Below, in pieces: positions 1 to 8,085 of a stretch of 64,000 nt of DNA. Both the position numbers and the translations under genes were made by a program. Numbering within the stretch: position 1 is the stretch's first letter; each line of letters opens with the position of its first letter. Below the pieces are notes generated by a model. It saw nothing but the letters and a program-made list of their open reading frames with translations, was not told the DNA's origin and searched no databases. Origin of the DNA: Ferruginibacter sp. Lineage in GTDB: Bacteria > Bacteroidota > Bacteroidia > Chitinophagales > Chitinophagaceae. The stretch is from the NCBI GenBank assembly GCA_025362235.1, contig JANYGZ010000077.1, forward strand, positions 1-64,000, in the 5' to 3' direction.

Positions 1-137
1 GACATCAGACATCAGACATCAGACATCAGACATCAGACATCAGACATCAGACATCAGACATCAGACATCAGACATCAGACATCAGACATCAGACATCAGA
101 CATCAGACATCAGACATCAGACATCAGACATCAGACA
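1..137. repeat. Heptamer tandem repeat (GACATCA)n
   Basis: About 19.6 uninterrupted copies of the 7-bp unit GACATCA, already in progress at the first base, so the true array is longer. It ends 13 bp before the rpe start codon. Because 7 is not a multiple of 3, every forward frame reads the same stop-free seven-codon cycle (D-I-R-H-Q-T-S), while the reverse strand has TGA in all frames. An in-frame TAA at 139-141 separates the array from rpe, so it is not an N-terminal extension of that protein. It occupies the place where the rpe promoter would be expected. Confidence 0.97.
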
Positions 138-4537: not shown

Positions 4538-5659
4538 CTACATATTTTTTTGAAACCAGCGTTCGTAAGCGGGATCTAAAAATTCAATGGTAGTACCACT
4601 GTCGTCAATTAATTCCTTTTGTACCAGCGCTTTTTTTATTTTCAGCACGTTGGCTGAAGTACCAAGTTCGTAGCGGTGGATGATATCCTTGGAGCTGAAA
4701 TTTTTTGTTATACCATCTGCCAGTGCTTTTAAAAAATTAAACTGCGGCGTAGAAAGGTTTTCCGTATCCCTTGTGTATAATAAGGCATTTTGTTCAAGCA
4801 GGTCTACTGTTGCATCTTCCAGTATTTTTTGTGTTGCCACCCTTTCTGTTTTTATCCATACAAGGTGCGATAATTGTTGTACATAATAGGAATGATCTTT
4901 TACAGTATCGGCAATTTCATTGGCCAATTGTGGTGAAATCTTTTTCTTAGTATTTAAAAATTGTCTTACAATATATTTAACCCATTCCTCCCTTTGTATT
5001 TTTGGCAAAAAAATCACTTCGCCAAATTTGTAAAATGCCTTGGATTGTTTTGTAAAAAGTTCAGTCATCATGTGTTGGCGGCTGCCATACAGGCAATAGC
5101 ATACATGGGTATGGTGCTGCCATTCGCTACGCAGGCGTTTTTGAAAAAGTTCAGGTTCATCAAAGTTGGCAAGGTTTTGAAACTCATCAAGGCACACTAT
5201 GATTTTTAAATTTTTAGCAACTGCAATTTTTTCGGGCAGGTTCAATATCTCCTGGTAATTTTTTTCAAGCAGTTTCCATTCAAACGAGATGTCCAGATCC
5301 TGCAACGGGTCGCTACCAATGGATATTTTTGGTGTCAGATTTTTTAAAAATTGTTTACTGGCTGCTATCCATTCTTCCACTTTACCAGAGGTAGCTTTTA
5401 TAGTAGCGGTTGCCAATGCCTTGTAAAATCCTTCTTCATTGCGTATGCCCATCATATCAATCATTACTGTTTTGGTTTGCCTGCCATGAAGGGATGCAGC
5501 CACTTTTTTTACCAGGGATGACTTGCCCCATCTGCGTGGTGATATCAGGATGGTATTTACCTGGTTGGTAAAATTATCTTTCAACCGCTGCATTTCTTTG
5601 CTGCGGTTGGTAAATTCATCTGCACTTACGGTTCTTCCAAATAAAAAGGGGCTTTGCAT
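4538..5659 (-). CDS. AAA/STAND-type ATPase with C-terminal winged helix
   Basis: A P-loop ATPase of the archaeal-ATPase-like group common in Bacteroidota, cellular role unknown. Walker A is PRRWGKSS at residues 41-48, and Walker B is IIVCLDEFQNL near residue 160. A sensor-like stretch (LYGSRQHMM) follows, and residues about 300-350 (TPQFNFLKALADGI to VQKELIDD) look like a winged helix. I choose ATG 5659, giving 373 aa; a TTG at 5665 lies inside the predicted -7 box and is unlikely. Predicted promoter geometry puts +1 on the ATG, so the message may be leaderless. A triple palindrome overlaps the -33 element, which suggests repression, possibly by the protein's own winged helix (inference). Confidence 0.85.
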   Translation of the reverse strand: MQSPFLFGRTVSADEFTNRSKEMQRLKDNFTNQVNTILISPRRWGKSSLVKKVAASLHGRQTKTVMIDMMGIRNEEGFYKALATATIKATSGKVEEWIAASKQFLKNLTPKISIGSDPLQDLDISFEWKLLEKNYQEILNLPEKIAVAKNLKIIVCLDEFQNLANFDEPELFQKRLRSEWQHHTHVCYCLYGSRQHMMTELFTKQSKAFYKFGEVIFLPKIQREEWVKYIVRQFLNTKKKISPQLANEIADTVKDHSYYVQQLSHLVWIKTERVATQKILEDATVDLLEQNALLYTRDTENLSTPQFNFLKALADGITKNFSSKDIIHRYELGTSANVLKIKKALVQKELIDDSGTTIEFLDPAYERWFQKNM

Positions 5660-5662
5660 ACT

Positions 5663-5694
5663 CAAATATAAAGGTGTTTTTTGAGCTTACCAAA
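5663..5694 (-). promoter_or_regulatory. Promoter of the ATPase gene (TTTG-N20-TATATTTG)
   Basis: Read on the minus strand, a -33 box TTTG (complement at 5691-5694) is followed after exactly 20 nt by the -7 box TATATTTG (complement at 5663-5670), matching the Bacteroidota consensus TTTG/TAnnTTTG. Only three bases separate the box from the ATG at 5659, so with usual spacing transcription starts at the start codon. The -33 box sits inside the first of three palindromic operator units. Confidence 0.6.
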
Positions 5695-5732
5695 TGGTAA
5701 GTTACCTTTTGGTAACTTACCATTTGGTAAGC
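5685..5732. repeat. Triple palindromic operator array
   Basis: Three 14-bp units of the form TTACC-N4-GGTAA at 5687-5700, 5702-5715 and 5717-5730, spaced exactly 15 bp apart. Together they form a perfect 22-bp inverted repeat (5685-5706 with 5711-5732) around a TTTT loop. Each unit is itself a near-perfect dyad, as expected for a dimeric regulator bound three times. The array overlaps the ATPase promoter and lies 134 bp before the divergent DUF1080 gene, so it could control either or both. It has no poly-T run typical of a terminator. Confidence 0.9.
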
Positions 5733-5866
5733 TGTTATAAAAGGTGCAGTCTCCGGTGCTAACCGGTTTATAGTACACCGCTGCAATATCTTTAAGGAAA
5801 CTCTATTTTTTTATAGTACTTTGAAAGAAAATTGAAACCCGGTTTTTAAAAGCTAAAATCTTAAAG

Positions 5867-7393: not shown

Positions 7394-7672
7394 GTAAGAA
7401 GAAATATAAATCGGTTCCCTAATGATTTTATGTTTGAAATGAACAAAAAAGAACTTGAAAATTGGAGGACGCAAAATGCGTCCTCCAAAGAAGATAAACA
7501 AGGTTTGCACTATGCGCCTTTTTGTTTTACTGAGCAGGGAGTTACTATGTTATCGTGCGTTTTAAATAGCGACAGAGCGGTAGATGTAAATATCCACATC
7601 ATACTGATATTTACAAAAATGAAAGAAATGCTACTGACTAATAAAGATATTTTAACATTAGTGTCCTGTTAA
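7394..7672 (+). pseudogene. ORF6N-domain protein, truncated at both ends
   Basis: Translation from 7394 gives VRRNINRFPNDFMFEM, then an N-W-R motif, FCFTEQGVTMLSCVL and a DVNIHIILIFTKM helix. This is the core of the ORF6N/KilA-type domain found in phage and mobile-element proteins, possibly DNA-binding. The conserved N-terminal part (about 40 residues) is missing, replaced by an unrelated GC-richer stretch at about 7290-7390. The C-terminus ends where the IS-type sequence begins: the last residues and stop (LVSC, then TAA) come from that sequence. A 23-nt perfect hairpin at 7464-7486 lies inside. It is a relic. Confidence 0.75.
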
Positions 7673-8085
7673 ATTAGTTCAAATTTTAATTGTTCACATT
7701 TTTGTTCTTTGCCATTCTTAGGGATAGTGCTTTGTAGCAGATCATTTAGATGTGTTTTATCAAAAAGAGACGCACTCATTATCTGCAACATTTCATACGT
7801 TGGCCTATTTATTTTGAGCTTGCTCTTGATTATTGCAATCAGGGTATAGGTAGCTATTGCTATATAAACGTGGGTCTTTACTGCATTCATGGATGTACCC
7901 CAGAACGATTTTATTTTCAGGTGCTGTTTTATCCATTTAAAAAATAATTCCACTTTCCATCTGTACTTATACAATAGGGCAATTTCGACAGCAGGCAGTG
8001 TAAAATTATTTGTTAGGAATACAAATATTCTTTGTTGCGCGTGATCAAAATATTTAACCTTTCTTAAAATTTCAGGATAGTTTAT
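7661..8085 (-). mobile_element. IS4-type transposase remnant
   Basis: The minus strand encodes the C-terminal part of a DDE transposase, open from about 8085 and ending at 7669. The IS4-family signature Y-x2-R-x3-E-x6-K is intact in YKYRWKVELFFKWIK, followed by HLKIKSFWGTS. Upstream residues (FVFLTNNF, LPAVEIALLY) continue the frame until an in-frame TAA near 8082, so the N-terminal two thirds with the first catalytic Asp residues are lost. One element end is probably at about 7661 (GTGTCCTGTTAAATTA), exactly where the ORF6N homology stops. The other end is not visible. The remnant cannot transpose by itself. Confidence 0.8.

Follow-up and report, generated by a model that had tools for sequence, protein, structure and literature searches.

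The stretch of DNA analyzed here (the window, 64,000 nucleotides of a Ferruginibacter sp. contig) carries on its minus strand, at positions 4538–5659, a gene for a 373-residue ATPase of the ATPase_2 family (PF01637), matched with 37.8 bits against a gathering cut-off of 33.2. A mechanical call of the open reading frame starts at a TTG at 5665; aligned homologs begin within a few residues of the ATG at 5659. The family profile was matched at 1e-3 by 44 of 45 aligned members, and alignment of these 45 sequences showed invariant G45 and K46 in the P-loop region (residues 40–47, 5519–5542) together with D158 and E159, predicted to act in ATP binding or hydrolysis, at 90% or more. An AlphaFold2 model (mean pLDDT 92.5) placed a winged-helix domain at the C-terminus (residues 304–372, 4544–4750) with helices at 304–314, 324–330 and 335–347 and strands at 351–353 and 358–360; the helix at 335–347 (4619–4657) is the predicted recognition helix. 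The best Foldseek matches in the PDB were 2qen (E 1e-15, TM 0.71) and 2fna (E 4e-13, TM 0.67), followed by archaeal Orc1/Cdc6 and ORC subunits, and model and fold matches agree with the C-terminal winged helix proposed in a first-pass annotation of this DNA. Seven solved structures were found by profile search, 2fna and 2qen again the best, and none by single-sequence search with the window ATPase. The Pfam ORC-CDC6-like model was matched at 1e-3 by only one of the 45 members, not that of the window, so that the protein does not belong to that sequence family. Matches to the PADLOC profiles PDC-S01/S27 were weak, reaching E 1e-4 over residues 15–74 for the window protein and 1.2e-9 at best among the 45 members, 20 of which matched one PDC-S01 model.

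Other features of the window and its relatives were recorded in passing. The very start of the window (1–137) is a perfect 7-bp tandem repeat, GACATCA, in 19.6 copies, and an ORF6N-domain fragment (7430–7669) lies beside part of a DDE transposase gene in the opposite orientation (7672–7974), apparently decayed. The same genome encodes a second, larger ATPase_2-type frame of 915 aa (G000:C20:8564-8965, L317). Four further loci (L141, L144, L145, and L146) have open frames of about 1,320–1,480 aa whose N-terminal part is this same ATPase domain; by reading, these frames also have AT-rich repeats upstream.

Upstream of the ATPase gene, positions 5684–5733 (50 bp) form a perfect inverted repeat with 23-bp arms around a TTTT loop. 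Within it, the 14-bp palindrome TTACC-N4-GGTAA occurs exactly three times with a 15-bp period: a gene-proximal unit at 5687–5700 (TTACCAAATGGTAA; TTACCATTTGGTAA on the minus strand), a second at 5702–5715 (TTACCTTTTGGTAA) and a distal one at 5717–5730 (TTACCATTTGGTAA). Tandem Repeats Finder delimited 5687–5731 with period 15 and 3.0 copies, and the palindromes (5687–5730) end 27 bp from the ATG. With at most one mismatch the motif has 13 matches in the window against 2.9 expected, a number reached in none of 100 shuffles. The single exact palindrome, searched in the forward form, occurs at 25 sites in the genome, compared with 15 for a reversed control pattern, and the double array at one place only; among the 294 family genomes searched the double array was found in two, this genome included. 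The RNA fold of 5675–5745 is strong (-39.3 kcal/mol, z -9.4, equaled by 0 of 200 shuffles), yet an RNA hairpin was rejected as the explanation, since transcription is predicted to start only past the stem, which would then be absent from the ATPase mRNA.

The gene-proximal palindrome overlaps a candidate promoter. On the minus strand, a TTTG (5694–5691) inside this unit is followed after exactly 20 nt by TATATTTG (5670–5663), a candidate -7 box of the form TAnnTTTG, and the ATG begins 3 nt past this box; the TTTG was named as a candidate -33 element by the -33/-7 consensus given in PMC7366714. In Flavobacterium psychrophilum the -7 box spans positions -12 to -5 (PMC9723704), so a start codon 4 nt past the box would itself be +1. 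Most of the first-pass description of this region stands as written: the three palindromes with an exact 15-bp period, the TTTG within the proximal unit at N20 from TATATTTG, and a predicted +1 that falls within about 1 nt of the ATG if the box sits at -12 to -5 as in PMC9723704. The stem with its 4-nt loop is likewise perfect, at 23 bp rather than the 22 bp first given.

To follow the array through the family, homologs were collected by protein and profile search, with no regard to arrays in the choice of genomes. The 138 loci and the window gave 133 near-full-length ATPases, of which 120 remained after near-identical ones were dropped; for 48 further matches without a locus, 40 were fetched and eight partial or broken ones were left out. 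The search profile itself included proteins from array loci and may favor their relatives. Scored in the 110 nt upstream, with the threshold at the 99th percentile of 720 windows drawn at random from these loci, 92 of the 120 distinct ATPases had a significant phased dyad array, with a period of 14 bp in 49, 15 bp in 41 and 17 bp in two. Control genes, any near an ATPase excluded, passed in 12 of 273 cases, in four with a 14-bp period and in none with a 15-bp one; these replaced a first gene control (37/450 passing) in which ATPase genes, and neighbors across the same intergenic DNA, had still been present. A second route, through array loci, led to 20 genomes and 30 added loci with 29 more ATPases, 24 of which passed, giving 116 of 149 in both samples pooled. 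Among those below threshold (28/120; 33/149), some have a repeat visible by eye and others none (L131, L134, and L174).

A scan starting from the DNA gave a complementary view. The exact double TTACC motif was found at 100 database loci, 64 of them from Bacteroidota as counted from titles, and at 43 of the 100 the array lies 5' of an ATPase that begins no more than 250 bp away, while three have it on the 3' side, for a total of 45 loci; they include L013, from a gammaproteobacterium, and L101, from a Thermoplasmata archaeon, the one archaeal case with an ATPase. Among the 55 loci without an ATPase call, seven from Bacteroidota (L016, L028, L052, L056, L066, L073, and L095) do have a whole or partial ATPase next to the array, at L056 and L095 by reading alone, and 27 are actinobacterial, the one tested there (L021) lying by a TetR-type gene. 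Searched from the protein and from the DNA alike, then, homologs do carry arrays, on which the first-pass annotation had staked its idea of autoregulation, and an operator-like site at the gene's own promoter is kept in homologs (92/120 vs. 12/273) as in autoregulated transcription factors. The array as a single shared motif did not hold up, because subgroups of the ATPases have palindromes of their own. A wider regulon was discarded as an explanation: the double array is single in the window's genome and occurs once or twice per genome in 20 others (at most one mismatch).

Some arrays stand before other genes. In Muribaculaceae, double TTACC arrays at L024 (7782–7810), L050 (3581–3609) and L087 (3042–3070) precede DUF4492-like and cytochrome bd oxidase genes with no adjoining ATPase (domains checked for L050 only), and the ATPase upstream regions in those genomes have other motifs or none by reading. 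In Bathyarchaeota, TTACC arrays at L061 (6235–6263) and L096 (1896–1924) lie directly before a small gene, of the ArsR-type HTH class at L061 and similar by reading at L096; these probably belong to a regulator that has a similar operator but no relation to the ATPases.

The promoter box also recurs. Among 118 members with arrays scoring at least 15 and at least 90 nt of downstream sequence (the set used for box and 3'-array counts; 93 when array-chosen genomes are removed), 62 have a TAnnTTTG box between array and start codon, compared with about five expected from shuffles. The distance from dyad to box varies (median 14.5, 10–90% range 5.6–33.8), which suits occlusion or steric repression better than an activator working at fixed spacing. 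A TTTG 18–22 nt before the box was seen in only eight of 39 listed upstream regions, so that the -33 element placed within a palindrome unit by the first-pass annotation is exact in the window without being general in the family.

The start codon lies 3–5 nt past the box in 32 of the 60 box-bearing members of the 120, at exactly 4 nt in 22, compared with three of the 35 control genes that have a box (Fisher p 7e-6). One box rule was applied throughout, and start codons were profile-guided for the ATPases and taken as the first Met for the controls. This comparison replaced an earlier one (29/62 vs. 13/118) in which the box rules had differed and loci from actinobacteria had been counted. In the 20 array-chosen genomes, mostly of Prevotella relatives, a start at 3–5 nt was found for none of the 24 members with a box. 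Elsewhere in the phylum transcripts of this kind are uncommon: about 3.7% of 5' leaders are shorter than 10 nt in PMC7366714, and 5.5% are leaderless in PMC9723704. Judged from the sequence, leaderless transcription is plausible at the window gene and in part of the family; the leaderless message originally predicted thus keeps its footing here without extending to the array-chosen genomes.

By reading, the palindromes fall into many types across members, among them TTACC, ATACC, TAACA, CATAA, GCGTAACGC and CGA-N6-TCG. Same-genome paralogs rarely had operator 6-mers in common (3 of 31 pairs in which both arrays scored at least 15); in one genome (G1002), with four ATPases and as many arrays, some 6-mers are common to two of the arrays. 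The relation between protein and palindrome was assessed by comparing 11-residue windows along the protein with operator 6-mer similarity after removal of overall similarity, using a register-free k-mer measure on 138 members scoring at least 14. The covariation peaked at residues 335–345, the ten best windows starting at 329–339, and the peak position was unchanged with 5-mers and 6-mers in a smaller run of 108 members. The peak value was a modest partial correlation of 0.166, compared with 0.091 for the strongest window whose first residue precedes 290, and it was reached by 0 of 999 label permutations, a test that leaves phylogeny in. Its site agrees with the recognition helix given independently by the structure model.

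The same relation was evident in pairs of distant members. In pairs with an overall identity below 40%, operator 6-mers were common to 1.0% (871 pairs) when recognition-helix identity was below 10% and to 28% (7 of 25 pairs) when it was at least 70%; for seven control segments the figure was never above 10%. A first operator measure, based on dyad-register profiles, gave r 0.15 with peaks at residues 227–250 and 299–312, off the recognition helix, and was dropped because tandem palindromes have two interchangeable dyad registers (unit and inter-unit); the switch to k-mers was made after that result was seen. Recognition of the array by the ATPase itself, as first suggested for the window, is well supported at the sequence level by the covariation with the recognition helix, which appears with the k-mer measure and not with the dyad-register measure.

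The array is thus frequent in the family, its motif tracks the recognition helix, and its position is on the promoter or beside it. We consider it probable that it is the private operator of the adjoining ATPase, which would bind the array at its own promoter and repress itself; for the details, we infer that the ATPase binds directly, with one dimer on each palindrome, that the effect is to repress and not to activate, and that ATP may drive a switch. ATPase dimers, or a row of them, would occupy the palindromes spaced 14–15 bp apart through the C-terminal winged helix, covering the promoter and keeping the level of the ATPase low. A change in the ATPase driven by nucleotide or ligand may then loosen or tighten its grip on the array, and in this way the ATPase domain would decide when its own promoter is shut. 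As members tend to carry their own palindrome and their own reading helix, paralogs in one cell would rarely cross-talk. What would be new here is a family-wide rule of one ATPase and one private phased palindrome array. No description of arrays at PF01637 genes was found in the literature searched, which left most subscription journals out of reach, and no role for this ATPase subgroup was found there.

Type Ia ParA proteins and toxin-antitoxin systems provide familiar cases of a DNA-binding protein that represses its own promoter in a manner private to each system; the ATPase here is a single gene, with no partner gene or centromere seen. By Pfam family and fold the closest proteins are SSO1545 (2fna) and PABY2304 (2qen), both AAA-like ATPases of PF01637 with a C-terminal winged helix; no DNA target for this family was found described in the literature searched (the SSO1545 paper being outside its reach). 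The closest precedent for the proposed self-binding is Orc1-2, an archaeal DNA-damage regulator that likewise combines an Orc1-like AAA+ ATPase with a winged helix and binds its own promoter (PMC9738581). Orc1-2 uses a hexanucleotide motif at several promoters, in contrast to the phased palindromes found here, mostly one array per ATPase and with motifs specific to each paralog. Archaeal Orc1/Cdc6 proteins and their ORB repeats also pair an AAA+ ATPase and winged helix with dyad-symmetric sites (PMC9738581); in the present family the sites are at the promoter, the motifs differ among paralogs and the genes are sporadic. An SSO1545-like ATPase domain is also found in a transcription regulator, the mycobacterial signal-transduction ATPase IniR, but this protein of 818 aa has a MalT-like domain as well as a DNA-binding domain resembling SdiA, and controls iniBAC (PMC5760070).

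An operator alone leaves arrays past the stop codon unexplained, and for this reason a mobile or self-marking reading was kept under consideration. Own-motif 3' arrays, with at least six of the member's own 6-mers in the 100 nt past the stop, were found in eight of the 93 members from genomes not chosen for arrays, compared with 0.8% of 8,556 cross pairs. They span different motif classes (L222, L235, L184, L231, and L143), and more were seen in genomes reached via array loci (L266, L270, L281, and L269). An earlier count of 12/118 had included genomes picked via loci with arrays on both flanks and was redone. At L055 a solo array stands where L064 has its 3' array; the two loci are 84% identical over 1,318 bp, a match that stops at the array, and the L055 genome, a metagenome assembly that may be incomplete, gave no ATPase at E 1e-10. 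Between the window and L112, DNA similarity extends from the ATPase stop codon (4538) as far as the outer array edge (5735), and the other five window proteins tested had no match in L112 within 1.5 kb on each side. Four relatives were found in viral contigs in a search with a single peptide pattern.

One account of these observations is a self-addressed genetic unit, in which the ATPase would recognize only its own array, serving both as operator and as flank address, and the gene with its arrays would move, excise or exclude relatives, leaving solo arrays behind. We regard this as unlikely; if it were true, private addresses would be selected as they are in plasmid incompatibility or phage immunity. 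Quite unlikely, in our judgment, is that the arrays are primarily the ends, targets or scars of a minimal unit, mobile or self-propagating, that consists of the ATPase gene plus its palindromes, with regulation secondary. Own-motif 3' arrays in several motif classes, the solo array of L055 in its apparently ATPase-free genome, the bounded similarity to L112 and the sporadic occurrence of the gene (in two of 58 congeners searched besides its own genome) would all fit such a unit. However, 104 of 116 downstream regions fell below the array threshold and 12 passed, no array was seen by reading past the stop codon of the window ATPase, and genomes hold only one or two double arrays (20 genomes). 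Domain searches of the window protein and of the 45 aligned members found no recombinase or transposase domain in the ATPase itself, so that the ATPase gene of the window shows neither this mark of an insertion sequence or transposon nor repeats at both ends. The far side of L055 has no match to L064, leaving a one-sided similarity rather than a clean empty site, and since intergenic DNA diverges fast, block edges at gene and operator as seen with L112 are expected anyway. A search for an empty site in the genus via the neighboring hydrolase gene (12 loci) found the other window proteins tested absent beside it.

The resemblance in fold to Orc1/Cdc6 and ORC subunits, next after 2qen and 2fna, also brings to mind a nucleoprotein assembly site with an origin-, partition- or anchoring-like role, at which the ATPase would mark itself and repression would be a by-product. 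Arrays on both flanks in some members would suit this, as would motifs seldom common to paralogs, which recall the incompatibility of partition systems. We nonetheless find it very unlikely given the promoter-like -7 box beside the arrays in 62 of 118 members and the lack of the gene in most genomes searched (present in 8 of 98 relatives at E 1e-3 and in 29 of 395 genomes at E 1e-30). Least likely, in our view, is a separate host regulator or nucleoid protein that binds the arrays with the ATPase as a mere target gene, an idea favored by the ATPase-free arrays before the DUF4492-cydA pair in the three Muribaculaceae loci and by the actinobacterial loci with their TetR-type neighbor at L021, but opposed by motifs that follow the ATPase's own recognition helix, by different motifs within one genome, each at its own paralog, and by a pattern reaching beyond one phylum (L013, L101).

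Self-repression through a private operator therefore remains the reading that we prefer. If the rule of one ATPase and one array holds, the upstream sequence of many members would reveal their DNA target, and the function of these ATPases could be probed through their promoters. The pairs of recognition helix and palindrome would also constitute a large, mostly orthogonal set of repressors and operators built on one scaffold.
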